From: Flavobacterium lacus
GTDB taxonomy: Bacteria > Bacteroidota > Bacteroidia > Flavobacteriales > Flavobacteriaceae
Length of the DNA stretch: 64,000 bases
NCBI RefSeq assembly: GCF_003268815.1
Contig: NZ_QLSV01000005.1
Location: 62,001-126,000 of the forward strand
Reading direction: 5' to 3'
Under the pieces are notes generated by a model. It had not been told where the DNA came from. It saw nothing but the letters and a program-made list of their open reading frames with translations, and ran no database searches. Below are positions 4,581 to 21,134 of the stretch, piece after piece (position 1 is the stretch's first letter; each line of letters opens with the position of its first letter). The translations under genes were made by a program, and so were the position numbers.

Positions 4581-4608
4581 GATGCTTATCTTAGTAAAAA
4601 AAATTACA

Positions 4609-4863
4609 ATGAACAAATTAGAAATTATTGATCAACTAAAAACAGTTGTGAAACCTTATATTAAAAATCAAGAAGCTTTTGACAATCTGTCTGAAACTAC
4701 TGATTTCATTAACGATTTAAAGATAAACTCAGCCAATTTAGTTGATGTTATTTTGGATATTGAAGAGGTTTTTGACATTGTGATAGACAATGCATCGATG
4801 GAGAAAATGCTCGATGTGAAATCGACTTTAGCCATCATCGAAACCAAATTAGCCGAAAAATGA
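4609..4863 (+). CDS. acyl carrier protein
   Basis: An 84-residue small acidic helical protein. The phosphopantetheine attachment serine is Ser41 at the start of helix II (INSANLVDVILDIEE), which aligns with the DSL-D/E-V motif of ACPs but has Asn-Ser-Ala in place of Asp-Ser-Leu. I chose the ATG at 4609 because it gives the standard ACP N-terminus; a longer frame from 4549 overlaps the synthase end. The gene overlaps the phosphopantetheinyl transferase by four bases (ATGA), consistent with paired production of the carrier and its activating enzyme. Confidence 0.88.
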   Translation: MNKLEIIDQLKTVVKPYIKNQEAFDNLSETTDFINDLKINSANLVDVILDIEEVFDIVIDNASMEKMLDVKSTLAIIETKLAEK

Positions 4864-5333
4864 TTGGAAATGATGTCATTGATTTAGCATTAGCTCAAAA
4901 AGAGAGTAATTGGCGGCGCAAAGGCTATTTGGATAAAATTTTTACTTCAAACGAACAAAATTTTATTTTTTCTTCTGAAAATCAAACAATTATGGTTTGG
5001 ACTTTATGGAGTAGGAAGGAAGCAGTGTACAAAATCATTCGGCAGCAAAATGGGCTTAGAGGCTTTTATCCTTTAAAAATTGAAAATTGCGACTTTGAAA
5101 ACGGAATTGTTTGTTTTGAAGACGACGTTTTTTACGCAAAAACATCAATAATAGGCGAATGTATTCATACAATTGCATCTCAAAATCATTTGCATAATCA
5201 AATTATTGAAATTTCATCATCAGTTCAGCTATTTAAAAAAAATGAGATTCCTTACATCCTTGAGAATGGGAAGAAAGTTTGTATTTCAAAAAGTTACCAC
5301 GGAAGGTATGAAAAAGTGATAAGAACTATTTAA
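4860..5333 (+). CDS. 4'-phosphopantetheinyl transferase superfamily protein
   Basis: A 157-residue protein with both signature motifs of the Sfp/AcpS superfamily: GNDVIDL at the N-terminus (Asp5, magnesium ligand) and W-S-R-K-E-A with Trp50, Lys53, Glu54 and Lys58. It transfers phosphopantetheine from CoA to the ACP serine, almost certainly that of the gene it overlaps by four bases. It is short, closer in size to AcpS than to two-domain Sfp, and may act as an oligomer. Its stop overlaps the stop of the convergent exonuclease gene by 8 bases, marking the end of the operon. Confidence 0.87.
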   Translation: MIGNDVIDLALAQKESNWRRKGYLDKIFTSNEQNFIFSSENQTIMVWTLWSRKEAVYKIIRQQNGLRGFYPLKIENCDFENGIVCFEDDVFYAKTSIIGECIHTIASQNHLHNQIIEISSSVQLFKKNEIPYILENGKKVCISKSYHGRYEKVIRTI

Positions 5334-5943
5334 TAGCTAACCTTTTCTTCAACTTCAAAAAAACCAAAGCCGTAATAAAAGCATCGCCGGAAGCCGTGTG
5401 ACGGTCACTTTTTTCTACTTTTAGGATTTTACAAAGTTCGTCTAAGCTAGAATGTTGATCTTCCTGTAAACCTTTAAATTTTTGATACATAGCATCCGTA
5501 TCCATGCTGTCATTTTTGAGTTTTCCAACGTTTAATCGTTTGAGCGCTTGGTTAATCATTTCAATATCAAAATTCACGTTATGACCGACTAAGGTAGCAT
5601 TTTTGATGAATTCTAAAAACCGAATGATGGCTTCTGCTTCTACAATTTTTTCTTCTTTTCCTTCTTTTAAAATTCCATGAATAAATGCAACTTCCGGTTT
5701 ATAAAGTTCTTGTTTTAAAAAAAGTTCCAATGAATCATTCACCAATACTGAACTATCTATAACAGCCACTGCACCAATAGATAAAATCACATCTTTGCGA
5801 TGATCTAATCCGGTCGTTTCACAATCAAAAACCACATATCGTTTTTGGTCGGAGACATTGGGTTTGTTTTCGAAAGTTTCGAGGTAATTCTCCCAAAATT
5901 TCGGATAATCTTTGCTCACTTTTTTTAACCAATCAAATACCAT
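5326..5943 (-). CDS. DnaQ-like DEDDh 3'-5' exonuclease
   Basis: A 205-residue exonuclease of the DNA polymerase III epsilon type. The DEDDh metal and catalytic residues are visible: Asp40 and Glu42 in FDCETTG, Asp126 in HNVNFD, and His182 with Asp187 in DRHTASGDA. About 35 residues precede the domain. It lies 3 bases after the CBS/nucleotidyltransferase gene, and the two form an operon. This pairing suggests a nucleotide or nucleic-acid repair or signalling function rather than replicative proofreading. Substrate is not determined. Confidence 0.88.
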   Translation of the reverse strand: MVFDWLKKVSKDYPKFWENYLETFENKPNVSDQKRYVVFDCETTGLDHRKDVILSIGAVAVIDSSVLVNDSLELFLKQELYKPEVAFIHGILKEGKEEKIVEAEAIIRFLEFIKNATLVGHNVNFDIEMINQALKRLNVGKLKNDSMDTDAMYQKFKGLQEDQHSSLDELCKILKVEKSDRHTASGDAFITALVFLKLKKRLAIK

Positions 5944-5946
5944 AAC

Positions 5947-7866
5947 TTAAGTAAAATAAGTGAGTTGAAAACGATTTTTAATAGCATCTTGAATATCGCG
6001 AATAGGTTGAAAAGCGTTTTTAAGCTTTACTTTATCTGATTTCGATAACTCATTTAAATTCAAATACCTACCGCTATTACTGTTTAATAAACCCTCTTCG
6101 GTTCTAAAGAGCGAAAGCGTTGAAAAAGCGTCTGCACAACTTTCAAATAAGTCAACGTTTTGAGGTTCTAATTCGGCTAATTTTTTATAACGTAGGTATG
6201 TATTATTAATCCCTTTTATGTCTTGGCTTAAAACCAACAAACGAGCGGCATCTACCAATGGCATAATTGCCCTACTTTTTATATCGAAGGTATCTTTGTG
6301 TTCACCATCGTCTTCCACCAAAAACTGACGAAAAAAGCCTAATGGAGGTGGGTTTTTCAATGCATCCGTGCCTAAATACGCGAAAAATAATTGGTTATTA
6401 TGTATGTTGGCAAAGATGTTTTCTGTAATCATATCAACTAATTTTTCATCGCCTACAATAAAATCATAATCAAAGAAAATGGAACACATTAAAATTCCTT
6501 TTTCGCCGGGTTTGTTAATCCACGAATTATATTGTTTATTCCAATCTGTAACCGATTTGCACCACATTGGATTGCTGGCCATCATTTCTGCCGGACAAAA
6601 TTCATAACCCACTTTGTTGAGCGTTTTGGTAACTTTCTCGGCTAGTTCAAGGAAGTATTTTTTCACCTCGTCGTAGCGTTCTTCGTCCACATCTTCAAAA
6701 ACTAATGCATTATCTTGGTCAGTCATCAACAATTGTTCTTTTCGACCTTGACTACCAATATTCATCCAAGCAAATCGAGTAGGGGGTTGCTGCTCCATTT
6801 TTTCAATAGCTAATTCTACAGCCCTTTTTGTAATGGCGATATTTATCTCACCAACGATACTTGAAATATGTTGAATAGGAATATTTTTATCTATCGAATT
6901 CTGAATCAAATCATTCAGTTTCTCCCGAACGGCTTTTAACTCTTTAGAGCGAGTTGCCCGTTTGGTTTGTTTAAGCAAAACACCGGGATTATTGGCTTGT
7001 GCTAACACAACATCATGTTCAGAAATGATACCCATAATTTTGGATTTATTCGTTCCGTCAACCGTAACACATAGATGGCCGACGTTATGTTTGAGCATCA
7101 TCATTTGGGTTTCGGCGATTGAGATGTTTTCTGCTACCGTAATAACGGGAGAGGACATGATTTGATCTACCATAATATCAATAGGAAAGAGGCCTGTGGC
7201 AATTTTTGAACGCAAATCTTTGTCGGTTACAATTCCAACCGGAAGATTATTGTCTTGAATAATTACACTGCCTATCTTACTATTTGTCATGGTTTTAGCC
7301 ACTAATTTCACACTGTCTTTTCTGGAAGCAGTAATTGGATTTTTGGTATAGGAAATGGGTTGAAAATATTGAATTTCAGAATTTTGATCGGTATAGATTA
7401 CGTTTTCAGAAATCAATTTTCCTTTGTTTTCTTTATCATAAGGATTTCGCGTATTGGACGCAAAACTTTCTAGCAAAAAGTTTAAAACATCCGCATTTTG
7501 GCTCACATATGGTTTAAAAACATCAATTGGAATGGCGTATAAAAGACTTTCTTCGCGGGCTTTGGCGGTCATTAAATAATTATCTTTGGCAAAAAATGGA
7601 CGAAGACCCAGAATATCGCCTTCATCACATTTATCAATTAAAGCTTCTTCTGCGTCGGATGTAACGGAAAGTCCGATAGCACCTTCCTTAACCACATAAA
7701 AAAAAGGATGCGTTTTATCACCAATTTTGAATAAAATATGATTTTTTTCAACATGAACGACTTGAATTTCTTTTGAAATTCCGACCAATTCAGCGTAGGT
7801 AAGACTAAAAAAAGGAGGAAAATTTTTCAGGAAATCAGCTATTCGTTCAGCAATTGAGTTTTTCAT
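5947..7866 (-). CDS. cNMP-binding / CBS-pair / DUF294 nucleotidyltransferase protein
   Basis: A 639-residue soluble multidomain protein. Residues about 15-135 form a cyclic-nucleotide-binding-like domain, 175-290 a pair of CBS domains that usually sense adenine nucleotides, and 310-480 a DUF294/GlnD-like nucleotidyltransferase with GSQGR (371-375) and the metal pair Asp383 and Asp385 in TDQDNALVF, followed by a DUF294 C-terminal helical domain. The layout matches a widespread but poorly characterised signalling family. It heads an operon with a DEDDh exonuclease. I infer nucleotide-controlled transfer of a nucleotidyl group to an unknown target. Confidence 0.88.
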   Translation of the reverse strand: MKNSIAERIADFLKNFPPFFSLTYAELVGISKEIQVVHVEKNHILFKIGDKTHPFFYVVKEGAIGLSVTSDAEEALIDKCDEGDILGLRPFFAKDNYLMTAKAREESLLYAIPIDVFKPYVSQNADVLNFLLESFASNTRNPYDKENKGKLISENVIYTDQNSEIQYFQPISYTKNPITASRKDSVKLVAKTMTNSKIGSVIIQDNNLPVGIVTDKDLRSKIATGLFPIDIMVDQIMSSPVITVAENISIAETQMMMLKHNVGHLCVTVDGTNKSKIMGIISEHDVVLAQANNPGVLLKQTKRATRSKELKAVREKLNDLIQNSIDKNIPIQHISSIVGEINIAITKRAVELAIEKMEQQPPTRFAWMNIGSQGRKEQLLMTDQDNALVFEDVDEERYDEVKKYFLELAEKVTKTLNKVGYEFCPAEMMASNPMWCKSVTDWNKQYNSWINKPGEKGILMCSIFFDYDFIVGDEKLVDMITENIFANIHNNQLFFAYLGTDALKNPPPLGFFRQFLVEDDGEHKDTFDIKSRAIMPLVDAARLLVLSQDIKGINNTYLRYKKLAELEPQNVDLFESCADAFSTLSLFRTEEGLLNSNSGRYLNLNELSKSDKVKLKNAFQPIRDIQDAIKNRFQLTYFT

Positions 7867-9114: not shown

Positions 9115-10761
9115 ATGAGAAAAGTTTTTACCTTTTTTGGTGCCCTTCTGTTTATTTACGGCGGTGCACAGACAACGACAGTAACCTATACTGCTTCGAG
9201 TGCGAACTTTCCGAATCCTGAACGTGGATTTTATAAGTACAGTGACACACAGTCTTCCTCTACGAATGGTTATAATCTTTTGAATCAATCTTCATTGACA
9301 AACTTTCGTGTAAATCAAAACATTACATTGGTTTTTCGGTATTTTTATTTAAATGATTATGTCAATACTCCCATTCCACAATCTTATTTAGATAATATGC
9401 AAACGGATTTTAATCGCATTCGAAATGCCGGATTAAAAAGTGTGATTCGTTTTGCCTATTCAGACGATTATGGCGATGGTGTTGTTTTAGATGCAACAAA
9501 AGCCAGAATGCTGGAACATATTAATCAAATCAGACCGTTATTGATTGCTAATGCAGACGTTATAGCAGTGATGCAAGCCGGATTTATTGGAGCTTGGGGT
9601 GAATGGTATTATACTGATCAAGCAGAATTTGGTGGTTGGGGTTATAATCAAACCAGTTTAACATCGGCCAATTATGCTCACAGAAAAAATATCACGGATG
9701 CCATTTTAAGTGCTTTACCAAACACAAGAGCAGTTCAAATTCGTTATCCGAAAATGAAACAACAAATGTATAATACACCTACTCCTCTCCCACCAAGTCA
9801 AGCATTTTCAAATTCAAGTTTGGCCAGAATTGGTCATCATAATGATTGCTTTTTATCCAGTAATACTGATGTAGGGACCTATTCAAATGTAAATACAGAA
9901 TATCCTTATTTGGATCAAGAAACGCAATTTGTTCCTATGGGAGGAGAAACATGTGCCGTATTTGAGTCGAGAACAAATTGTGAAACCGCTCAATTTGAAA
10001 TGGCTAAATTCCATTGGTCCTACCTTAATTTAGATTATCATCCAAGTGTCATTAACGGTTGGCAAACAGGCGATTGTTACCAAGAAATTCAAAAAAATCT
10101 TGGGTATCGTTTTCAACTAACCAGTGCTGTTTTGCCTCAAAGTATTGCATTGAATAATCAATTATCTGTTACGTTAAATATAAATAACGTAGGATATGCT
10201 GCCCCTTTTAATGAGCGATATGCCTATATTGTTTTAAAAAACACAGCAACTAATGAAGTTTTCCCAATTATGTTGGATTCTGACCCAAGAAGTTGGCAAG
10301 GTGAAGTTACTATTTCAGAAAATCTGACTTTGCCTGAAGGAATTATTCCGGGTGATTATGATCTGTTTTTGCATTTACCAGATGCCTATGCTTCGTTAGC
10401 AAACAGACCGGAGTATGCCATTCGATTTGCAAATACTAATATGTGGGAATCTTCAACGGGCTACAACCGCCTGGACCATAAAATAGAAATCACTCAAACT
10501 CTTGGTATTGCTGACAATAATCGTTTAAAAGTAGTGTTACATCCTGTACCAGCTGATAGCGAATTAACTGTAGAAATGGATGCTGCTTCTGAATATAATT
10601 TTCAAATCTACAATTCGTTAGGTCAACAAATAAAATTAAATGCAACTCATAACGGAAATAAAGTAAGTTTTGATACGCAAGTTCTATCCAATGGAGTTTA
10701 TATCATTCAGTTTAATAATGGGGAAATCAATGATTCCCGACGATTTATTGTAAAACACTAA
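9115..10761 (+). CDS. secreted DUF4874/DUF4832 protein with T9SS sorting domain
   Basis: A 548-residue exported protein. A signal peptide covers about residues 1-18 and ends before AQTTT. Residues about 30-200 resemble DUF4874 (NPERGFYKY near the start; GFIGAWGEWYYT later), which looks like a TIM-barrel glycoside-hydrolase-related fold, and about 210-450 resembles DUF4832. The last 80 residues form a type A T9SS sorting domain (HPVPADSELTVE, IYNSLGQQI, NGVYIIQF, RRFIVKH), so the protein should cross the outer membrane by type IX secretion and be anchored or released. Acidic and aromatic residues in the GAWGEWY segment could be catalytic. Polysaccharide hydrolysis is a guess from the fold. Confidence 0.8.
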   Translation: MRKVFTFFGALLFIYGGAQTTTVTYTASSANFPNPERGFYKYSDTQSSSTNGYNLLNQSSLTNFRVNQNITLVFRYFYLNDYVNTPIPQSYLDNMQTDFNRIRNAGLKSVIRFAYSDDYGDGVVLDATKARMLEHINQIRPLLIANADVIAVMQAGFIGAWGEWYYTDQAEFGGWGYNQTSLTSANYAHRKNITDAILSALPNTRAVQIRYPKMKQQMYNTPTPLPPSQAFSNSSLARIGHHNDCFLSSNTDVGTYSNVNTEYPYLDQETQFVPMGGETCAVFESRTNCETAQFEMAKFHWSYLNLDYHPSVINGWQTGDCYQEIQKNLGYRFQLTSAVLPQSIALNNQLSVTLNINNVGYAAPFNERYAYIVLKNTATNEVFPIMLDSDPRSWQGEVTISENLTLPEGIIPGDYDLFLHLPDAYASLANRPEYAIRFANTNMWESSTGYNRLDHKIEITQTLGIADNNRLKVVLHPVPADSELTVEMDAASEYNFQIYNSLGQQIKLNATHNGNKVSFDTQVLSNGVYIIQFNNGEINDSRRFIVKH

Positions 10762-10782: not shown

Positions 10783-10822
10783 AAATGATGAAGTACAGAA
10801 AATGTACTTCATCATTTTTTTA
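10783..10822. terminator. bidirectional-type terminator between convergent genes
   Basis: A perfect 15-bp stem (AAATGATGAAGTACA at 10783-10797 and its complement at 10803-10817) closes a 5-base loop and is followed by a T run on the plus strand. It separates the T9SS gene from the convergent Pel-like operon. Plus-strand termination is well supported; the minus-strand T run is weaker. Confidence 0.85.
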
Positions 10823-13800
10823 TCTAGTCCGATTCTTTTCTTTAAAACTATGTTTTAAACCAAATTGTATGGAATTAGAATAGAATTTTTCTTGATTAAA
10901 CACTTCAAAACCAGCGACTAAAGCAGTATAATTAAATAATCGATAGGAAACCGTTCCTGAAAATCGTTGAAAAACCTCTGCATAGTCATCAAAAAAGTAA
11001 GCAGCTTCTAGCTTTGCTTTAAAATCATTTGCCTCCAAACCATAGTTAAAACTTAGTCCTCCTCCACCGAATAAGCGGCCGTCTAGCATCCAATACGGAT
11101 AGCCATCACTTAAATCGGCTGAACCAGTTTGAATGGAATATTCTAAAAACGGTATAAATTTTGATTTTTTAGGTTCTCCATCATCCCATCCAACCCGAAG
11201 CGTTGCAGAGATATCAATATTATTATCGGTTACAAAATCGGTGTTATCCTTACTTTTTGTGTAATAATTCGATTCAATTCCCAATGTAGCGTTAATTTTC
11301 TTCATAAAGTAAACACTTTGGTACAGAACCGATTGAACATGGTAAATTTCTTTAGCATGTCCGGGAGCGGTTTGAACCGGAAATACATTTACTTGTGCCG
11401 AGCTGAAGTTTTTCTTGAATGTTTTGTTTACACCTGCTCCAAACTGAAAATAGGTGTTTTCAAAATTATCCATTTCAAACCTTATTCTAGACCAATATTG
11501 ATATTTTTCGTATGAAAAAGGGTTTTTATATTGGTATTCTACCCCATAAACTCTGGTAAATATATTATCATCCGAAATTATCAATTGTTCATTTTCATTT
11601 CTATTTGCGGGGCGTGGAAAAATTATAATTGTATCAACAGTAGAACGAATTAATGGGAAAAATTCAGAGTACGTCGCAGCAAATCGATGAAGGTTCTTTT
11701 TTGTATCATAAAAATTATAGGAATGTCTTGTTGTTAACAAAGCCATTCGGTCACGATTGGTTTGAATTTCATTTTCAGATTCTATGAAATTACCATATTT
11801 TAATCGGTTGGTTTTGGTAACAGCCAATCTAACATTGTCAAAAAACAATGCTTGATAATTGGCTAATAAATCTTGTTGTAAAAACTCATCTTGATAAACA
11901 ACATCAGCATTTAATGATTTTCTGAGTGATTCTTTTTCTTTTGATTCAGGAAGTTCACTGGCAAGAATCCATGCTTCTTTAAACTTACCCATATCATGGT
12001 AGTAATTTGCCATCAACGCTTTTGTTTTATAATCGTGTAGATTATTTTCAATATAATTTTTATATTCATTAACAAGACTTTCATATTGTTTCAACTGAAA
12101 AAGCCATTCCATTTTGTTGGCAATATCAATTTCATTACTATAAAACGACCAATCATAGGCTTTTTGATAATTTTTTTCATTAGCATAAAGCCAAGTAATA
12201 TTAGTTGCCAATTCACGATACTCCTCGGACGGGTCAATTTTTTCTAATTCTACTAAAGCTGCTTGTGGTTCATACCATAATAAATGTTGCAAATAATTAA
12301 AAAAACTTTGTTTGCCGGTATCAACACTTAAAAGTGCAATTAACGCTTGTTTTATTTTTTCTTTATTTTCGGGTGTGTTAAAATTGGCTACATAATTGTT
12401 TAATAAATCCTTGTCCCTTGGGTTCACCAACAATTGAGCGTTTATCCATTTTTCCATTACTAAATCATTTGGATAGCCAATCAGCTTTTCTAACTCCACC
12501 GAATACATTACATTTTCAATAGTGGGATATTTAGCACAGTGTTGCTCAAGCATTTTCCATACCTCGTCTCCTTTATTATCCCAAGACATATATTCAGCAT
12601 ATTGATTCCAAGTTGGGTAATCAATTATTGATTCTGAGAGCATTCGTTGTTTTAATGCCGCTTTTTCTAACCGAATTTGCTCTTCATAATTTTGATTATT
12701 TTCTTCACCTTTTTCAAATTCTCTTACTTTAGAGGCATACGCATAATAATCATTTTTAACTTTACTGTAGATAAAGTCTAATTCTTTGTCTTTATATTCG
12801 CGGTAATCTTTGATGTTAATGATAGGTTCATTGGTGTAAACAGAGTACAAATAACCATTTAAGTACTTTGTTTTAGAATAGATTACCGCAATTGATTTTA
12901 ACTGAAGTTCAATGTTTTCGGAATTTTCATCAGAACCGTATAAAAACCAATATTGGCTGTTTGAGAGCGAATTTTCCGGGTTTAATTCTTCTACAATGTA
13001 TTTCCCATCATACGTTTTGTGGTTAAATTTTGAGGCTCTCCAATCCAATGCAATAAAACCACCTTCGCCTGCATTTAAAAAACGAGATTGAGGAAAAGCC
13101 ATTGTAAACTCTTTTAGGTATTTATCAAATTGGTTGAATAAACCTCCCGGTTTTCCATTTGTTTTTTTCCAGCCTAATCCTTTTGCATTTCGCAATTCAA
13201 AATCACCGGCACTTTTATTAAATGGACTCGGAATTTGATACACATCATCAGGATGAACAAAATGATTCCAAATTCCGGTATACAAGTACAGCGATTGAAT
13301 GTTGTATTTTGAATTATTATCAATTTCAAAACCGCTGGAAATTCTGGGATAATCAAACATCCCGTGGTGATAGGGATCAAAATCAAATTCACGATTTCCT
13401 CCATCATACGTTTCTCCCAAATACAAACTGCACATAAAACTAATGGAAGGTAGACCTTCTTTGAGCCTTTTTAACCCCATTTGATCAATATAATTGGATG
13501 GTGGAACATACGAAATAGGTAAATCACCGAAGTTACTTACTTTCCATTTTTTTTGAACACCTTCTAATGCTGTCACAATGAATTCCGGTTTTTTCCAATC
13601 TCGTTTAATAAGAGAAACGTGATTATAACCATGAAATCCTAACTCATGTCCGGTTTTAATACAATCCCTCATTAGCCAACTACTAACGGGTTCTACTTTA
13701 CCATCATTGGAAACTTTTTTAGCATCCCATTGACTAAAAAGAAATGGGGGTTCTGTTTTTACATTATAATCAAAAGCCGGAATTGCGGTGTAGCTCATTT

Positions 13801-14743
13801 GGTATTTTTTAGCTAAATCCTTCATGTCTGGCCACCAAACTTTTCTAACGAAATCAGAGATAGAAAGATTCATTTCTGATTTAATAGGTTCCATTTTTGT
13901 ATCATACAAAGGTGAAGGAAAGTCGTCCAAAAAAATAGTGCTAGTGTTTGCGATTGGGTACGGAATGCCTTCTAAACCTATCATAACTCCTGAAAACAGT
14001 AATCCTCTATCCATTTTTTCAAATTCAAAGGTAGAATTCAAATTGATGACCCTCCCCTTTCCAATTTTATTTTCCAAAATGGTGGGAAATGATGCGTTAT
14101 TAATCGCCGTGGCATGAACTTTTATTTTTGACATATCAAAATTTTCACCGCTCATTCCAAAATGAATGATTGATTCTCGGGAAGAAGTTCCTGCTAAAGT
14201 TGGTAAAAAGTTTTCTTTGAAATTAATTCCAAACGAAGTTACATCGGTTAAATAATCTGAATTTATTTTCATTCCAATCATAAAACCAAAACGTTTATCA
14301 TCGCAGGCAAATGGTAGATAAAGTGTTCCACCATCTGAAACGAATTTTAAAATTTTAGCCACCGATTCATCCGTTAGCTTTTTTGTTTCTAATACACACA
14401 AAACACGGGTTGAAGGAGCAATTTCTAAATTTGCATTCCAAGCCTTAATGTTGATGTTCTTAAATGGAATTTTAGTATAATTGGAGACCTTTTTGAGGTG
14501 ATTACTGTATTTCACGCTCATCGGGTTTTCAAAATCTACAATGTATTCAACCAAAGGAGGAAGATTCAAGTCGGTGTCTGAGTAGTGTTTTAATACACCG
14601 TTTTTTCCGGCTTGATCCTTAGAAAATAAATCAATATTATCTGGATTCATTATTGCATCAAAGTCGGCACAGCTTGAAAAAATCAACACAATTGCCAGCA
14701 GGCAGTGTATCAATATTCTATTTAGGATAGCACGGTTTTTCAT
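10820..14743 (-). CDS. Pel-like lipoprotein: DUF2194 deacetylase + helical repeats + outer-membrane barrel
   Basis: A 1307-residue envelope protein, last gene of the Pel-like operon. The N-terminus is a lipoprotein signal ending at Cys25 (IFSSC). Residues about 100-265 look like the Rossmann/amidotransferase-like half of DUF2194. Residues about 265-600 carry polysaccharide-deacetylase motifs: FLDDFPS with Asp273 and Asp274, and HELGFHGYNH with His371 and His375, the metal-binding H-x3-H. Residues about 700-1010 are helical and TPR-like. The last 290 residues have alternating aromatic beta strands, as in an outer-membrane barrel. In Pseudomonas the deacetylase is part of PelA while TPR and barrel are PelB, so this looks like a PelA-PelB fusion lacking the hydrolase, which is the separate gene at 16719. 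It starts 2 bases after the upstream gene. Confidence 0.8.
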   Translation of the reverse strand: MKNRAILNRILIHCLLAIVLIFSSCADFDAIMNPDNIDLFSKDQAGKNGVLKHYSDTDLNLPPLVEYIVDFENPMSVKYSNHLKKVSNYTKIPFKNINIKAWNANLEIAPSTRVLCVLETKKLTDESVAKILKFVSDGGTLYLPFACDDKRFGFMIGMKINSDYLTDVTSFGINFKENFLPTLAGTSSRESIIHFGMSGENFDMSKIKVHATAINNASFPTILENKIGKGRVINLNSTFEFEKMDRGLLFSGVMIGLEGIPYPIANTSTIFLDDFPSPLYDTKMEPIKSEMNLSISDFVRKVWWPDMKDLAKKYQMSYTAIPAFDYNVKTEPPFLFSQWDAKKVSNDGKVEPVSSWLMRDCIKTGHELGFHGYNHVSLIKRDWKKPEFIVTALEGVQKKWKVSNFGDLPISYVPPSNYIDQMGLKRLKEGLPSISFMCSLYLGETYDGGNREFDFDPYHHGMFDYPRISSGFEIDNNSKYNIQSLYLYTGIWNHFVHPDDVYQIPSPFNKSAGDFELRNAKGLGWKKTNGKPGGLFNQFDKYLKEFTMAFPQSRFLNAGEGGFIALDWRASKFNHKTYDGKYIVEELNPENSLSNSQYWFLYGSDENSENIELQLKSIAVIYSKTKYLNGYLYSVYTNEPIINIKDYREYKDKELDFIYSKVKNDYYAYASKVREFEKGEENNQNYEEQIRLEKAALKQRMLSESIIDYPTWNQYAEYMSWDNKGDEVWKMLEQHCAKYPTIENVMYSVELEKLIGYPNDLVMEKWINAQLLVNPRDKDLLNNYVANFNTPENKEKIKQALIALLSVDTGKQSFFNYLQHLLWYEPQAALVELEKIDPSEEYRELATNITWLYANEKNYQKAYDWSFYSNEIDIANKMEWLFQLKQYESLVNEYKNYIENNLHDYKTKALMANYYHDMGKFKEAWILASELPESKEKESLRKSLNADVVYQDEFLQQDLLANYQALFFDNVRLAVTKTNRLKYGNFIESENEIQTNRDRMALLTTRHSYNFYDTKKNLHRFAATYSEFFPLIRSTVDTIIIFPRPANRNENEQLIISDDNIFTRVYGVEYQYKNPFSYEKYQYWSRIRFEMDNFENTYFQFGAGVNKTFKKNFSSAQVNVFPVQTAPGHAKEIYHVQSVLYQSVYFMKKINATLGIESNYYTKSKDNTDFVTDNNIDISATLRVGWDDGEPKKSKFIPFLEYSIQTGSADLSDGYPYWMLDGRLFGGGGLSFNYGLEANDFKAKLEAAYFFDDYAEVFQRFSGTVSYRLFNYTALVAGFEVFNQEKFYSNSIQFGLKHSFKEKNRTR

Positions 14744-14745
14744 AC

Positions 14746-16716
14746 TTAATAGATTAGGTCATCAATCTTACTTGATTTGGGTTCGTTTACAATTTCGTAC
14801 ACGTTAACGTAAGGGCTTTCATAATACAAAGAGACTGTTCTTCCTCTTTTTTCAAGTGTGTTGATGTGTTCTTTTAAAAGGGGTTCTAATTGATTTTGAT
14901 CAGCAAAATGATTTTCGGTTTCCGTATTGTCATGATATACAAAAACTAAAACGCTTTTGGGAATTACATATTGAGGATTTTCAACAAAGAATTTGGGTTT
15001 CTTTCTATTGTGATGATAAATTGAATCACTTTCTAAGTAACTGAATAAAAAATCTTCGTAGTTAATAAAGAAATGTTTATTAATACTCATCGTTTGAGCA
15101 ATATTGTCATTTACAACAGCATAACTATGAGGGAAAAATTCATGTAGGATTTTATCATAAGCATCTAAAACCATTCGAGGTGTTTTGTCTGAGGTCTTTA
15201 TATCGCTTAATGGCTTTATTTGGGAGTAAATTATTCCGCCAAAGGCTAACAATGAAACGGCCACAGCAATTGGCATTTTGAAGCGAATCACTTTTTTATA
15301 GAGCGGAAATAGTATTCGTAACAAAACAGCAGTTGTAATTCCGAAACAAATTGGAATAAAAACTGAAAGTGCTAACCGCAACAAATCGGAATCAATCCAC
15401 TCCACTTTTAGAAAACTTAGTGTAACTAAAAGATTAAAATAAAGCATAAAAACTAGCGATGGTCTCCATTGTTCTTTTTTAAACCAAATTAAAAAAGGTA
15501 AAATGACAATACTGAATAATGAACCATATTGATAGTACTTCAGTAATTCATCAAACGGAATAATCAAATTTGGCATATAGGTAAATGAAGTGACCGAAAT
15601 CAAACTTGATTGCAAGAATATTAAAAAATCATTTTGATAAAATTCACAGATGAAGTAGTAGGTTACCAAAACAGAAGCTGTGCCTGTTAGATAAGCAGCA
15701 AGAGCAATCCACTTATAAGAAAGAAAGTTTTTATTTACAAACACTAATGCAATTACAAAAAATGGAGGAATTAAAATTAATAAGGTAAACAAATCGATTA
15801 ATCCAATGGAAAAAAAACAGATTACTAAACTGCTAAAGAAATTGGTCTTTTTAAAATTAATTACATCTGGTTTCAAAATATAAACCATACAAGGAATAGC
15901 AAAGGTTAACGCCATTAAAACCGGTTCGTTTTGGAGTAAATAATGAATTTCAATTGGTGAAAAGGTATACAAAAAAACATAGGTAAGAAAAGCAATCATC
16001 GGAGCTAAAATTCGGGACGGCGTGATTTTACGTATTGTCCAAAACACAATAAGACTCAATAATATATCTTCTAATATTGCTAAACTTTGCAAACCAACCT
16101 CGGGACTCACGTCAACTAGTTTAGAATATAAATTGCTAATTGCGAGTTCACCTTCTACAGAAACGGTGCCATTGAACCAAATGTCTTCATCAAAAAGCAG
16201 TACTTCATTCAAATTGGCTATCCATAAATCAGAAAGTAGGTAGGTGTCGTAACTGTAAAAGAAATACCTACCAACAAAAGCTGACACAATTAAAACTAAT
16301 GTTGCATAAAAAATAAAGACTCTATCGTCTATTAACTTTTTAGGTTTTTCTAATTGAACGAGATCTCGTAGTGGTTTTTTGTTTTCATTATCTTTTAAAA
16401 ATTCAAAAAAACGAATCTTTGATATTTCTTTGAAAAAGCGTACGGGGTTTTTAAAATTTTTAATTCCAATCACATCAACTACTATGATAAATAACATGAT
16501 TAAAACATAATTAATTAAGCTGTAAACACTACATTGAATCAGTACAAAAATGATGACTAACGATAAGCTACCGTATTTAAACCACTCATTAACAATAAAT
16601 TGCAATAAGTTATGACTGTATTCACGCTTAACCAACTTGTTGTTGCAGTAGTATAAAAACATAAGCAAGAAAACGAGCCGAATGAATCCTATTAATATGG
16701 AGCTGGAAAGTATCAT
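14746..16716 (-). CDS. polytopic membrane protein of the Pel-like operon, function unassigned
   Basis: A 656-residue protein with about 13-14 hydrophobic helices and a C-terminal soluble tail of about 150 residues beginning after the helix that ends near SQIKPLSD. A soluble loop rich in acidic and aromatic residues (YDTYLLSDLW) follows about the fourth helix. I recognise no GGDEF-like PelD domain and no TPRs of PelE, although the gene sits where those would be expected. The topology, with many helices, an early acidic loop and a C-terminal periplasmic-type domain, recalls GT-C-type proteins, but no diagnostic motif is seen. It is packed 2 bases from each neighbour, so it is very likely part of the polysaccharide machine. 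Confidence 0.6.
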   Translation of the reverse strand: MILSSSILIGFIRLVFLLMFLYYCNNKLVKREYSHNLLQFIVNEWFKYGSLSLVIIFVLIQCSVYSLINYVLIMLFIIVVDVIGIKNFKNPVRFFKEISKIRFFEFLKDNENKKPLRDLVQLEKPKKLIDDRVFIFYATLVLIVSAFVGRYFFYSYDTYLLSDLWIANLNEVLLFDEDIWFNGTVSVEGELAISNLYSKLVDVSPEVGLQSLAILEDILLSLIVFWTIRKITPSRILAPMIAFLTYVFLYTFSPIEIHYLLQNEPVLMALTFAIPCMVYILKPDVINFKKTNFFSSLVICFFSIGLIDLFTLLILIPPFFVIALVFVNKNFLSYKWIALAAYLTGTASVLVTYYFICEFYQNDFLIFLQSSLISVTSFTYMPNLIIPFDELLKYYQYGSLFSIVILPFLIWFKKEQWRPSLVFMLYFNLLVTLSFLKVEWIDSDLLRLALSVFIPICFGITTAVLLRILFPLYKKVIRFKMPIAVAVSLLAFGGIIYSQIKPLSDIKTSDKTPRMVLDAYDKILHEFFPHSYAVVNDNIAQTMSINKHFFINYEDFLFSYLESDSIYHHNRKKPKFFVENPQYVIPKSVLVFVYHDNTETENHFADQNQLEPLLKEHINTLEKRGRTVSLYYESPYVNVYEIVNEPKSSKIDDLIY

Positions 16717-16718
16717 GT

Positions 16719-17528
16719 TTATTTTGAGAAATCGGGAATAGCTTGTAAATCTATTTTACCGATAAAATACTCGAAGTTGGTTGAAGATAATCGTTTAATG
16801 ATCTGATCATAAAGCAGCTTGTTGTCTGCATACTCTATAAGTAAAACAGGTATTTTATAGGTAGTGCTTAATTTTTTAATATTCTTTAATCGTTCCAAAA
16901 AATCACTGTTTTCGCGAAGTTTGTACAAGTTATCGATGAAGCTGAAATCTGTTGCTACCGATTCAAACAAGATGGAATCTATAAAGTTCTTGGTATCAGG
17001 AATTAATTCTAAGCCTGAATTTTGAACCAAAGTATGATTAGGATATGTTTTTTTTATTCTCTTGATTAATTCAATCAAATCATTTCGTTGTGAAAATTGA
17101 GGTCCGAAAGAGGAAAAATTATCTATATTGTCTAGAAATAATCCATCAAATCCTTTGTCTAACACTTTTTTTATTAATGACATTAAAACAACGGGTGTTG
17201 ATTTGTCTTTTAAGTTTAAATAATAACTATTCCAATTATTGTTTTTTCCTAATGTTCTGTTTTTTAGTAAATTATAATGGATTGCATTACTATTTACTTC
17301 ACCTAAACTAATGTAGGCTAAAACATTCTTATTATTCTTTTTAAGTAAGGATATTTCTTCTTTCTTAAAGTTTTTTTCTTCTAATATGACGTAATTATAG
17401 CCTTTAATTTTAACGGGGTCTAATTTGCCATAGCACACCAATACAGTGCTCTTGTTTACAGAATTACTGAAAACAGGTGCAGAAAGTAGCGACGGCAAAA
17501 GCCATAAAAACAAATTAAAACGACGCAT
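16719..17528 (-). CDS. periplasmic PelA-type glycoside hydrolase (endo-alpha-1,4-polygalactosaminidase-like)
   Basis: A 269-residue exported protein with a signal peptide over about residues 1-21. The TIM-barrel motifs of the GH114/GH166-type galactosaminidase family are visible: AYISLGE at 71-77, GFDGLFLDNID at 126-136 (Asp133 and Asp136), VQNSG near 169 and ILFES with Glu189. It corresponds to the N-terminal hydrolase domain of Pseudomonas PelA but stands alone here. It would trim or release the polymer in the periplasm. Its start lies inside the PelG coding region (14-base overlap), showing translational coupling. Confidence 0.82.
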   Translation of the reverse strand: MRRFNLFLWLLPSLLSAPVFSNSVNKSTVLVCYGKLDPVKIKGYNYVILEEKNFKKEEISLLKKNNKNVLAYISLGEVNSNAIHYNLLKNRTLGKNNNWNSYYLNLKDKSTPVVLMSLIKKVLDKGFDGLFLDNIDNFSSFGPQFSQRNDLIELIKRIKKTYPNHTLVQNSGLELIPDTKNFIDSILFESVATDFSFIDNLYKLRENSDFLERLKNIKKLSTTYKIPVLLIEYADNKLLYDQIIKRLSSTNFEYFIGKIDLQAIPDFSK

Positions 17529-19128
17529 AATAATGATAATCTAATTTTTTAAAAAAACGAAAAATGTGTTTTAATGTGTAGAACATAAAAAATAGTGCTC
17601 CCGCCAACATGCCCACTACGCTGTATTCAAAACTCACAAACCGACTGAGAATAAAACCAATGGTAAGGTTAATAACCATTGCATAAATAATACCTTTAAG
17701 TGGTTGTTCTGTTTGACCTAAAGTAAACAAATATAATGTATTGAGCATTCCCCAAGCTAAAAAGAAGTAACCTATACCTCCAAAAATAGTGACTTTTACA
17801 CTTAAATCTTCTAGTTCCTCATGAAACTGTCCTTTGTATCCCCAAGAAGCGAACATCAATTGGTAGATAATTACAAAAATAACCGCTGCTGTTATGAGTA
17901 GAATAAGTATATTTTGCCAATATATTTTATGTAATTCTTTATTAAAAAGTTTAGAATTTTCAAATTGAACTAACTTTTGGGTGATATCTAAAAAGCGAGT
18001 GAATGAAGCAATACTAAATTCTAACACACCGGAAAGCAATAAAAAAACCAAAATTGCCATATCCATGCCAAGTTCATAATCTTTTTCAAAATATACCATA
18101 AATGGAAGTTGACCTTCTGCCGTAGTGGACCATGCCAAGATTCTATCGATAAATATAAAAAGGTAAATGCAAATTCCGTATAAAAAATACCGGTGATTTT
18201 GATAAATAAACACGGATGTTTTGATATTTAATTCAGCTTTTGGCGGATGTTTTTTTAATAAATTTCTAAAGAAAAAATACAAATACGTTTTGGCAGAAAT
18301 GATAGCAACACTAATTCCAAACCAATGCGTGTAATAAATCGAAAGCGACGAATATTTGTTTAACAGCACGGTTACCATTGTCCCTAAAATAACAGCAATA
18401 GTTATCATCCATCGTTGTCTGATTGTGTGTAATGGTGCTAAAACTAAAAGCAAAAGACCAATTAAAAAAGCATAAGCAAATATGATAAAAAATACTTTGT
18501 AGGGGTAAATATGAATGAAGGAATTAACAAAAAGTATTACTGCAAAAACTATAAACAGTGTTTTGATTCCTAATTTTAAGAGGTAATCAATTGTTTTTTT
18601 AGTCATCGAATAGTCAAGGTAGTTCCAATAAAATGACGCTTGTCTACCAATAACTTGAACAAAACCGCCAGTGGAAACAATCCCAATAATTACACCCAAT
18701 ACAACTGCTGTGGATTGCAAGTGATTAAAATTTACATGTGTCCACAACGAATAACCAAAAACAACGATAGCTGCAATTTGAAGGAAAACCGGAAGAAGAT
18801 GAAAAATACCCAAAGGATAATACTGTGCAAAGATTTTTGCTTTTACGACCATGTAGTCAGAAAGCTGAATTGTCTCAGGATTAGTCTCCAAGTATTCGCG
18901 TTGTTTGACATTCAAACTTTCTTTATGTTCCAAAGACGTTGTTAGTTGTCTGTAAACATAATTTGCTAAATCTTGAATGTCTGAAACACCATAATCAGTT
19001 TCTGTATCAATATCTCTAATACCAAAAGATTCTATAGTAGCGGCTACAACTCTGCTGCTAACCGGTTTGCCTATTTTATCTTTTACATTATTGATTAATA
19101 CTTTTATATTTTCACTATGCTTTTCCAT
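17515..19128 (-). CDS. pelG: PelG-like exopolysaccharide transporter
   Basis: A 537-residue integral membrane protein with about 12 hydrophobic helices, of the MATE/MOP-flippase-like PelG family. The C-terminus ends LDYHYYASF, a tyrosine-rich tail as in PelG. GGFVQVIGRQ in the early helices and ILVFLLLSGVLEF in the second half also fit. It is longer than Pseudomonas PelG (about 456 residues) because of about 95 soluble residues before the first helix. PelG forms the inner-membrane synthase-transporter with PelF, PelD and PelE in Pseudomonas. The pelF gene lies 72 bases upstream in the same operon. Confidence 0.82.
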   Translation of the reverse strand: MEKHSENIKVLINNVKDKIGKPVSSRVVAATIESFGIRDIDTETDYGVSDIQDLANYVYRQLTTSLEHKESLNVKQREYLETNPETIQLSDYMVVKAKIFAQYYPLGIFHLLPVFLQIAAIVVFGYSLWTHVNFNHLQSTAVVLGVIIGIVSTGGFVQVIGRQASFYWNYLDYSMTKKTIDYLLKLGIKTLFIVFAVILFVNSFIHIYPYKVFFIIFAYAFLIGLLLLVLAPLHTIRQRWMITIAVILGTMVTVLLNKYSSLSIYYTHWFGISVAIISAKTYLYFFFRNLLKKHPPKAELNIKTSVFIYQNHRYFLYGICIYLFIFIDRILAWSTTAEGQLPFMVYFEKDYELGMDMAILVFLLLSGVLEFSIASFTRFLDITQKLVQFENSKLFNKELHKIYWQNILILLITAAVIFVIIYQLMFASWGYKGQFHEELEDLSVKVTIFGGIGYFFLAWGMLNTLYLFTLGQTEQPLKGIIYAMVINLTIGFILSRFVSFEYSVVGMLAGALFFMFYTLKHIFRFFKKLDYHYYASF

Positions 19129-19200
19129 TTTGCATTAGTAGAACACATACATTCTATTTTTTGGTTAGGTTTGGGTTTTGGCGTAAATTTGGGTGGGTTT

Positions 19201-20751
19201 TTAGGAGGCTTTTACTGTTTCTATTTCATTGAAAGATTCAATTAGTATTGGCATTTGTACTTCTTTAACTTCACGAGTAATGACTCTTTCATAGACTTCT
19301 TCATACGCGTTGATAAATTTTCCAATGGTAAAATTGTCTATTACTTTTTTTCTGGCATTAATGCCCATTTGCTCTCTTAATGCTTGGTTTTTAAGAAGCT
19401 CCACTACCCTATTTCCGATATCTTCGGCATCTTTTGGTTTACAAATGTAACCGCAAGAGTTATCTAAAGCTTCTGTCACTCCTCCAACATCCGTTGCAAT
19501 AACAGGAATTCCACAACTCATTGATTCTAATACTGTATAAGGAAAACCTTCAGATATAGAGGTTAGTATTGATATATCTCCTTCACAAAACAATTCACTT
19601 GGATTTTCATGATAACCAGCTAATTTGAAGTTATCTCTCAAATCTAATTCTTCGATCAAACGTTCACATTCTGCAGTATATTCAGGAACAGCATTGTTGT
19701 CTCCATAAACCAGATATTGAATATTCGGAATTTGGCGTTTGGCTACTTCGCACGATTTTATCATCGTAACTATATCTTTCAAATCAAAAATACGAGCAGC
19801 AGCCACCACTGTTGGAATATCTTTTAAATGTTCCGGTTTTGGTGCTGGTTTAAATAGGTTGTGATCTATTCCGTTATATATAATTTCAATTTTTTCAGGG
19901 TCGGCTCCATATAATTTTTCCCACTTAATATTGAATTTATTAACAGACAAGATTCTGTCCGCTTTGTAATAAACCAATTCAGTAACACATTCAGAAAATT
20001 TAATTAACATCTTTTTGAGGAAAAACGAATATTCTGATGAATTGATTGCCAACAAACGCTCACGAATAAAAACACCATGCTCGGTTACAATCATTGGCGT
20101 TCCATATTTATATTTTAAAACCAAAGCAGGAATGACTGGGAAACCTGACAATGTTAGATGAGAAACGTCAACTCTTGGCACATCAACAGATAATGGAATC
20201 AGAAAACGGTAAATCCATCGCATACCTGAAGTTAAATCATACAAAAATACTTTTTCATTTTCTTGCTCTGAATTCAAATCAGAAACCATGTAACAAAATG
20301 TCCGCCAAACAGGCTCGCTTTTCATCGTTTTTTTGTAATCGTGCTTTTGAAAATAACGCCACATTTTTTGGATGGTTCCGTCAAAAGCCCGAACATCTCT
20401 ATTATCGGAGAAAATATGTCTGAGTAAATCTTGAAAAATAGGAATAAAAACCTGATTGATTTTATCTATATCGTTTTTCTCTTTTTGAGAAATAATTTTA
20501 TAGTATTTTTTGCCATAATCAATCATCTCTTGTGGTTCCATTGGTGACCATAATGGAACTTGAATAAGGCTTTTAACGTTTTCGCTTAATTTGTATTTAG
20601 ATTTGGACTCAAATTCAGCGTTAATAGAATAAAGCGTAAAATTTGAATTTTTCACTTCATTACAAAGCATGTGTGCCCAAGTAGAAACGCCACCGCCGTT
20701 GAAAGGATAAGTCCCTTCTAAAATCAACATTACATCGTGCTTTTTGTTCAT
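19201..20751 (-). CDS. pelF: PelF-like GT4 family glycosyltransferase
   Basis: A 516-residue cytoplasmic GT-B glycosyltransferase, close in size to Pseudomonas PelF (507). The N-terminal acceptor domain opens with EGTYPFNGGGVSTWAHML, a PelF hallmark. The donor site has YNGIDHNLFKP (292-302) and the E-x7-E pair Glu401 and Glu409 in SEGFPYTVLES. PelF polymerises UDP-linked GalNAc/GlcNAc into Pel. It is the first gene of the operon and follows a long leader with a near-ideal promoter. Family assignment is strong; the sugar used here is inferred. Confidence 0.88.
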   Translation of the reverse strand: MNKKHDVMLILEGTYPFNGGGVSTWAHMLCNEVKNSNFTLYSINAEFESKSKYKLSENVKSLIQVPLWSPMEPQEMIDYGKKYYKIISQKEKNDIDKINQVFIPIFQDLLRHIFSDNRDVRAFDGTIQKMWRYFQKHDYKKTMKSEPVWRTFCYMVSDLNSEQENEKVFLYDLTSGMRWIYRFLIPLSVDVPRVDVSHLTLSGFPVIPALVLKYKYGTPMIVTEHGVFIRERLLAINSSEYSFFLKKMLIKFSECVTELVYYKADRILSVNKFNIKWEKLYGADPEKIEIIYNGIDHNLFKPAPKPEHLKDIPTVVAAARIFDLKDIVTMIKSCEVAKRQIPNIQYLVYGDNNAVPEYTAECERLIEELDLRDNFKLAGYHENPSELFCEGDISILTSISEGFPYTVLESMSCGIPVIATDVGGVTEALDNSCGYICKPKDAEDIGNRVVELLKNQALREQMGINARKKVIDNFTIGKFINAYEEVYERVITREVKEVQMPILIESFNEIETVKAS

Positions 20752-21134
20752 AACATTTAGATAATAAGATTCCTCTCGTCAATGAATCTGCCTTTGCAGA
20801 ACCAGACAATTTGGTGCACTTTAACAATCTTAGGGTGGTTCTGTGGTATTTTTTGGAATGCCGGCTTTTGGAGACGACTTCAAAAAAGTTTTTTAACTTT
20901 TTGTAAAGTATATTAACAAATAATTAATAGACTTTACGTGGTTAAAATACTATTCAAAGGTAGAATTAAATCTAAATAGCACAAAATAAATACGTTGAAA
21001 TCTGTTGAAAACACTGATTTTGTCGACGAAATGCATAGTGCTCTAGATGAGTAACTTATATTGCCGATTAACGGCAAAATAAATTTACTTCTAAATAAAA
21101 TTAAGAAAGAATTTAACAAGTAAAAAAGTAAGAA
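20752..21134. other. 383-bp spacer: leader of the Pel-like operon and 3' flank of the helicase
   Basis: No gene is seen. The minus strand from about 20948 down to 20752 forms a leader of about 197 nt for pelF. It contains three inverted repeats: AAAAAGTT/AACTTTTT with a 4-base loop (20883-20902), CAGAACCA/TGGTTCTG (20797-20804 and 20836-20843), and AGATTC/GAATCT (20767-20772 and 20784-20789). No known riboswitch class was recognised. The part right of 20990 is featureless. Confidence 0.55.
20955..20985 (-). promoter_or_regulatory. promoter of the Pel-like operon
   Basis: Read on the minus strand, TTTG (20982-20985), a 19-base spacer and TACCTTTG (20955-20962) match the Bacteroidetes sigma-A consensus TTTG-N19-TAnnTTTG at every fixed position. 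Transcription should start near 20948, about 200 bases before the pelF ATG. Confidence 0.75.

Follow-up and report, generated by a model that had tools for sequence, protein, structure and literature searches.

Known Pel systems and the locus in Flavobacterium lacus

In Pseudomonas aeruginosa, PelA (CE21 deacetylase and GH166 hydrolase) docks on a separate protein, PelB, by binding its repeats 9-14, and PelB raises deacetylation (PMC12022489, PMC12141448). The 1193-residue PelB is thought to reach the inner membrane and is accompanied by a PelC ring. In Bacillus cereus the Pel deacetylase PelADA, the founding member of CE26 and CBM114, is a 610-residue single-pass membrane protein without repeats or barrel, encoded in a pelDEADAFG operon that has PelD, PelE and cyclic di-GMP (c-di-GMP) control (PMC13254593, PMC7112168). 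Here we report on a window of 64,000 nucleotides from Flavobacterium lacus (contig NZ_QLSV01000005.1, positions 62,001 to 126,000), in which a Pel-like operon ends in a gene for a 1307-residue fusion protein, predicted to run from a deacetylase through helical repeats into an outer-membrane-type barrel. We consider it likely that this locus is a Bacteroidota form of the Pel-type machine, in which one outer-membrane protein both deacetylates and exports the polymer.

The host assembly is 3.5 Mb in size and 99.84% complete. The operon comprises five tightly packed genes on the minus strand, at 10820-20751 of the window, which encode products of 516, 537, 269, 656 and 1307 residues in the order of transcription. 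A first-pass annotation, made from the letters of the sequence, had described these five genes as overlapping or lying within 72 bases of one another, and the gaps from pelF to the fusion gene (72, -14, 2 and 2 bases) agree with it. The genes and the parts of the fusion protein are as follows.

19201-20751, minus strand: pelF (516 residues), a GT4 glycosyltransferase and predicted polymerase (NCBIfam PelF equivalog; Pfam DUF3492 and Glycos_transf_1)
17515-19128, minus strand: pelG-like gene (537 residues), predicted inner-membrane exporter with an extra N-terminal part of about 110 residues (sub-cut-off Pfam PelG match)
16719-17528, minus strand: PelA-type glycoside hydrolase (269 residues), its start resembling a signal peptide (phmmer match to 5TCB)
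14746-16716, minus strand: multi-pass membrane protein (656 residues), GT-C-like fold in a low-confidence model (VIA-align)
10820-14743, minus strand: fusion gene (1307 residues), deacetylase, helical repeats and predicted outer-membrane-type barrel (Pfam, phmmer, AlphaFold2, VIA-align)
14669-14743, minus strand: lipoprotein-like signal of the fusion, Cys at residue 25, not certain (sequence)
13958-14566, minus strand: N-terminal domain of the fusion (residues about 60-262, boundaries approximate), counterpart of CBM114 of B. cereus PelADA (phmmer alignment to 9ZAU; named as in PMC13254593)
12884-13957, minus strand: CE26-type deacetylase domain of the fusion (residues about 263-620; alignment to 9ZAU and residue conservation)
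11768-12778, minus strand: helical repeats of the fusion resembling tetratricopeptide repeats (TPRs; residues 656-992; AlphaFold2, and TPR families in some relatives)
10844-11743, minus strand: predicted C-terminal outer-membrane-type beta-barrel of the fusion (residues 1001-1300; AlphaFold2, VIA-align)

The Pfam family DUF2194 spans residues 75-582 of the fusion protein (E 6.6e-63, over the cut-off) and is found in all 22 of its aligned relatives. The sole sequence in the PDB matched by the fusion up to E 10 is 9ZAU, that of PelADA (residues 60-502; phmmer E 5.3e-38, and E 1e-64 with a profile); Pseudomonas PelA is unmatched. The site of PelADA consists of the base D262, the metal ligands D263, H350 and H354, P405, the base-coordinating R458, and the acid H488 with its Asp D491 (PMC13254593). 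The equivalent residues of the fusion, D273, D274, H371, H375, P414 or P415, R467, H497 and D500, were mapped by hand from the phmmer alignment, with the chain offset implied by the 9ZAU construct (27-610). Each of them is invariant across the alignment, which took 22 of 33 full-length fusion sequences, and P414 and P415 are both invariant. This comparison was made by sequence and not by superposition, because our AlphaFold2 model begins at residue 250 with a low-confidence deacetylase portion (blocks mostly at 24-68) and 9ZAU is not among the Foldseek or VIA-align matches listed for it.

Motif 1 of the fusion deacetylase is an adjacent Asp-Asp pair (FLDDFP), whereas Pseudomonas PelA has the His-x-Asp-x-Asp motif of another family, CE21 (H526/D528/D530; PMC12022489). 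An assignment to CE21 is ruled out by this adjacent pair and by the closest relative being 9ZAU, not PelA. Judged by sequence, the deacetylase is of the PelADA/CE26 type found in Gram-positive Pel systems, and its active site appears intact. The first-pass view that PelA had simply been split does not hold, since its CE21 domain is not the one found here. The same annotation called the fusion a lipoprotein, which is plausible; Cys25 follows a hydrophobic stretch and a loose lipobox occurs in 14 of the 22 aligned sequences, although the FSSC of the window's own protein is atypical.

The segment between deacetylase and repeats is poorly conserved and variable in length. Beyond it, the AlphaFold2 model (residues 250-1307, built from a nine-sequence alignment) has helices at 656-992, followed by 15 long strands at 1001-1300. 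The predicted local distance difference test score (pLDDT) is 81-92 for residues 800-919 in the helical part, 50-83 for most strands and 29-55 for the last five. A predicted C-terminal barrel had been set beforehand as the test of the first-pass claim that the deacetylase continues into helical repeats and an outer-membrane-type barrel, and at the level of prediction the claim stands. Among the VIA-align matches of the model, the top one is 4y25 ('bacterial polysaccharide outer membrane secretin', Z 13.3, 3.1 Å over 218 residues), which we take to be the barrel of PgaA, from poly-N-acetylglucosamine (PNAG) export; the third is PelB of the PelBC complex (9h80_M, Z 11.4, 4.0 Å over 231 residues). 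In PNAG export the TPR-barrel porin PgaA works with the deacetylase PgaB; these are separate proteins, with a different synthase and polymer. Of 22 aligned sequences scanned singly, five match TPR_19, four match TPR_14 and one matches PgaA_barrel (E 0.0064); the window's own protein matches none of the three. A polysaccharide-export-type barrel is supported by the predicted fold, not by sequence.

The locus and that of B. cereus have in common the domain pair, the active-site residues by sequence, the adjoining PelF and a PelG, and a separate hydrolase; what sets the present locus apart is that the deacetylase continues into repeats and barrel and that a GT-C-like membrane protein is encoded. 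As in P. aeruginosa, a deacetylase stands beside periplasmic TPRs and an export barrel of predicted PelB-like fold, and the hydrolases are homologous. Unlike the P. aeruginosa system, in which enzyme and porin are two proteins, the locus has one, and no PelC, PelD or PelE is named by Pfam or NCBIfam in the five-gene operon (PelC and PelE were not searched for genome-wide). An export porin joined to an enzyme that modifies the polymer in the periplasm has a precedent in the BcsZ-BcsC fusion, for which cellulose operons of Zymomonas are the example given in a survey (PMC7112194); there the enzyme is a hydrolase and the polymer cellulose. The same survey of pel operons reports fission of pelB and rearrangement of pelA, and 'Bacteroid' is absent from its main text. 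DUF2194 is named in two papers of the open-licence literature searched; one of them, PMC9848294, has it alongside pelF and pelG in an expression table from Fusobacterium. Within that literature, mostly the beginnings of abstracts, we found no description of a Bacteroidota Pel locus or of a PelA-PelB fusion. The parts belong to known families, and their combination is new relative to the literature searched.

Spread of the fusion protein

DUF2194 is matched at E <= 0.001 in 46 of 395 Bacteroidota genomes. The cut-off is passed in 28 of them, and 27 of these matches are strong (E <= 4e-57), so that the locus is present in 27 of the 395. All 27 strong matches lie in open frames of 1268-1349 residues, and they fall in five families (f1, to which the window belongs, f8, f13, f24 and f31); the remaining match over the cut-off is partial (30.8 bits, in a frame of 696). 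A second sample of 397 genomes from f1 gave 62 matches, 20 over the cut-off and 17 strong (E <= 1e-43). Sixteen of these 17 lie in frames of 1312-1364 residues and one in a frame of 843, its match starting 836 bases from a contig end; the other three over the cut-off are partial, at 30-33 bits. As the two samples share four genomes, there are 40 distinct genomes with a strong match, of which 39 have the long frame (1268-1364) and one is cut by a contig end. The barrel half was confirmed in the 27 genomes of the phylum sample, by its own search or by a full-length profile, and the 13 genomes found only in the family sample were judged by frame length. The search for the same architecture across Bacteroidota, which had been suggested at first pass, thus bore fruit.

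When the repeat-barrel half was searched alone in 296 Bacteroidota genomes, it gave 23 strong matches (E <= 1e-107), all in the same frames as the deacetylase (1269-1349 residues); nine further genomes had weak matches in the repeat region only. Among 199 Bacillota genomes, 14 match DUF2194 and six do so over the cut-off; all six lie in frames of 612-645 residues and none is fused. The earlier description of a 'rearranged Pel-like operon' is therefore apt in its second part and misleading in its first, since the domain is fused wherever it is found in Bacteroidota.

Relatives of the fusion at 19-90% identity align with it from end to end, the closest named one being from Flavobacterium sp. UBA2787 (90% identity). 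In a deacetylase tree of 39 rows, a single branch with support of 100/100 parts 33 fused rows from 5 single ones. The tree includes L007, which is cut by the contig end and placed in no group, and excludes L008 (too short), L066 (the same as L009) and L010-L039 (duplicate shorter stretches or weak hits). Together with the fusion seen wherever the domain turned up in Bacteroidota, the tree is compatible with one fusion event; it is unrooted, has long branches and is no proof of one. The contig of L007 is filed in a Bifidobacterium breve metagenome bin and bears an operon of Flavobacterium type; it is probably mis-binned.

Companion genes and neighbourhoods

The product of pelF scores 174.9 bits against the NCBIfam PelF equivalog, whose cut-off is 100, and it is the sole match to DUF3492 in the host genome; PelF had been readily recognised at first pass, and with good reason. 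The hydrolase, belonging to a family named GH114 in Pfam and GH166 in papers on PelA, had likewise been read as the PelA hydrolase in the form of a free 269-residue protein. This is supported by its match to the Pseudomonas PelA hydrolase structure 5TCB (phmmer E 3.2e-15), PelA being its closest relative in the PDB. Its E189 aligns with the PelA Glu replaced by Ala in entry 5TSY. In an alignment of 35 copies, all at least 250 residues long, D133 is present throughout; E189 is present in 32, and the other three, which are second copies lying upstream, have a gap there. Among relatives of the PelG-like protein, 6 of 16 match Pfam PelG at E <= 0.1; when nine proteins (the window's and eight others) were run singly in Pfam, only that of L040 exceeded the cut-off (29.9 bits), and NCBIfam gave no match for 16 members. 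Residues 1-110 (18799-19128) form a conserved N-terminal extension (VVAATIESLGIRD...DYGF) outside the Pfam PelG alignment, for which no family was found.

The 656-residue membrane protein is the least understood part of the locus and perhaps the most novel. A Pfam search assigns it to no family, and one of 22 members of its own family matches DUF6541 (E 4e-6). Its model is poor (pLDDT 57), and the ten best VIA-align matches, with Z of 7.8-10.3, are DPY19, AftA, AglB and oligosaccharyltransferase (OST) chains, presumably all GT-C enzymes; the top match reaches Z 10.3 over 285 residues at 7.3 Å. For helical folds, the arrangement of the helices by itself can give Z as high as 13. AftA is also the first Foldseek match (E 0.17). 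In this poor model the protein looks GT-C-like. In GT-C glycosyltransferases, the first external loop bears an acidic catalytic residue. The presumed equivalent loop (residues 148-206) has no invariant acidic residue, the best being 206 (20 of 22) and 168 (17 of 22), and the protein may therefore be an enzyme that relies on unusual residues or one that has degenerated. Among the characterised Pel systems compared from the available literature, it has no counterpart.

We compared the neighbourhoods of 34 loci (L001-L008 and L040-L065). The order PelF, PelG-like protein, hydrolase, membrane protein, fusion is kept, with an extra gene in some loci. PelF and PelG-like genes lie upstream wherever the stretch suffices (L005 starts inside PelG, and L040 has only the end of PelF); the stretch taken for L040 has no hydrolase, and two frames make up the hydrolase in L008 and L062. 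The 656-residue family, which the first-pass account of the operon had left unnamed, is present in all 34 loci and stands immediately before the fusion in 33. The exception is the most divergent locus, L040, where two regulatory-type genes intervene: at 3950-7535 lie a GAF/SpoIIE-type protein and a GAF/HD protein with the GYP motif.

Families f24 and f13 contribute 21 loci, and in these the PelG-like gene and the hydrolase are separated by an additional gene. Pfam identifies it in L042 (5394-7022), the one locus so examined, as an HD-domain protein, and it occupies the same place in L043-L046, L048-L052, L054-L058 and L060-L065. By pattern, the HD pair is present in 21 of 21, HHEW in 18 and GYP in none. 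The protein resembles an HD-GYP domain lacking the GYP, and is a possible substitute for PelD. Directly 5' of pelF in L042 lie a response regulator (19-996) and a second, shorter DUF3492 glycosyltransferase (996-2180). A shorter PelF-type frame precedes pelF in all 21 of these loci, and thus in 21 of 34 overall, with DUF3492 confirmed by Pfam in L042 only; it may point to a polymer of two sugars. In L041 (12897-15461), Pfam identifies a second GH114 protein, a ZIP zinc transporter and an iron-dependent-type repressor just 5' of pelF, and frames matching these genes in size and order occur in L047 and L053. An operon of this type could be supplied with or regulated by metal, to serve a metal-dependent deacetylase.

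Two further features lie at the 3' border of the operon.

10783-10817, strand not assigned: terminator-like hairpin at the boundary between the operon and the convergent neighbour (sequence)
9115-10761, plus strand: convergent neighbour whose product carries DUF4874 and DUF4832 and ends in a type 9 secretion tail, a possible accessory (Pfam, NCBIfam)

The DUF4874/DUF4832 gene is in the same place in L001-L006, that is, in all six loci of that series reaching so far, and no relative of it was found in the 26 stretches L040-L065. Some pel operons of Gram-positive bacteria likewise have DUF4832 genes beside them (PMC7112168), and for this reason the protein may have an extracellular action on the polymer. 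TTTG/TAnnTTTG is the promoter consensus of Bacteroidota. A match of this type lies at 20955-20985, 5' of pelF, to which we give no weight: 6.6 such matches would be expected in the window, and 10 occur.

A GGDEF search of the host genome gave no matches, while 8 of 14 control genomes were positive; the result covers the host genome and these controls. PelD is also missing from the operon. The switch by c-di-GMP that operates in other Pel systems is therefore probably absent, and control of this locus by c-di-GMP appears unlikely on the gene content. A PelD family search of 198 genomes of the phylum gave no matches either, but its controls were silent too, so that it has no bearing on absence elsewhere.

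A proposed model of coupled deacetylation and export

Our analysis suggests a model for the operation of this locus. PelF would polymerise an amino-sugar chain, most likely of N-acetylgalactosamine (GalNAc) by analogy with Pel, and the PelG-like protein, perhaps together with the GT-C-like membrane protein, would move the chain into the periplasm. There the sugar-binding N-terminal domain and the CE26-type metal-dependent deacetylase domain of the fusion would partly deacetylate it, the helical repeats would hold and steer it, and the C-terminal barrel would release it; the domains are assigned by homology or prediction, and the path through them is the one that we propose. The separate PelA-type hydrolase may trim stray polymer in the periplasm. 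The fusion would thus amount to a permanent version of the docking of Pseudomonas PelA on the PelB repeats, with the deacetylase held at the mouth of the pore. The first-pass suggestion that a fusion would tie deacetylation to export is upheld as a reading of the fused domains, and such hard-wired coupling would be a new variant of the Pel machinery. In an extended form of the model, which we put forward tentatively and rather doubt, the locus is a separate, c-di-GMP-independent type of Pel machine in Bacteroidota, in which the GT-C-fold protein replaces PelD and PelE, either by forming part of the conduit through the inner membrane or by transferring a sugar to the chain from a lipid carrier, one deacetylase-porin replaces PelA, PelB and PelC, and the product is a new deacetylated polymer.

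Several observations weigh against a Pel-type machine built around one deacetylating and exporting protein. All members of the fusion family are known from genes and predictions alone, and the substrate is named by analogy only. The fusion model is weak, with a mean pLDDT of 58 and a predicted template modelling score (pTM) of 0.32, and does not give the relative placement of the domains; Foldseek by itself returns nothing at E <= 0.001. The specificity of the barrel match is modest, an ordinary porin reaching Z 11.3 beside the 13.3 and 11.4 of the export proteins, and the repeat-barrel profile matches PelB over 41 residues in the repeats only (9h80, E 0.079), with no sequence match in the barrel. 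The PelG assignment is weak; the protein is colinear with Pfam PelG over residues 113-534 and scores 12 bits against a cut-off of 29, and the profile of its family misses, at E <= 10, a PelG from Bacillota whose own Pfam score is 442 bits. For both reasons we write 'PelG-like', and the earlier statement that PelG is recognisable was generous. The locus is also patchy, as among 24 genomes of the same genus in the phylum sample only the window's own is strong, and separate copies of the domains could have escaped the phylum and family searches, which score three to four candidates per genome.

An alternative with the same layout and logic is that the polymer is a different one; PelF and the GT-C-like protein would build a chain other than alpha-1,4-GalNAc, and the specificity of deacetylase and hydrolase would have shifted to suit. 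The great divergence of PelG speaks for this, as do the constant GT-C-like protein, without counterpart in the Pel operons compared from the available literature, and the second, shorter PelF-type frame seen in 21 of the 34 loci. We nevertheless judge it rather unlikely, given that PelF passes the equivalog cut-off, that the residue altered in 5TSY is retained by a hydrolase whose nearest PDB relative is PelA, and that the CE26 active-site residues are kept. The poorly conserved linker of variable length between deacetylase and repeats would also suit a fusion that is made as one chain and later cleaved in the envelope into a deacetylase and a porin acting as two proteins; set against the retention of the frame in 39 of 40 genomes, such cleavage seems improbable. 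A chance read-through or an assembly fusion peculiar to this genome has next to no likelihood, because 39 complete frames of like length recur among the 40 genomes, the strong matches of the phylum sample fall in five families, and relatives at 19-90% identity align end to end; we regard it as refuted. We therefore retain the Bacteroidota form of a Pel-type machine as the likely reading.

In the Pel and PNAG systems, where enzyme and porin are separate proteins, the coupling of deacetylation to export is still to be explained. The fusion would extend CE26-type deacetylases from Gram-positive bacteria to a large Gram-negative phylum, and the DUF2194 proteins of Bacteroidota would gain a likely function. 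It also places a Pel-like locus in a bacterium in which no GGDEF protein can be detected; in Pseudomonas and Bacillus, proteins of this kind make the signal that controls Pel. With enzyme and porin joined, their coupling becomes open to study in a single polypeptide, and one purified fusion protein could give the structure of the whole modification-export unit.

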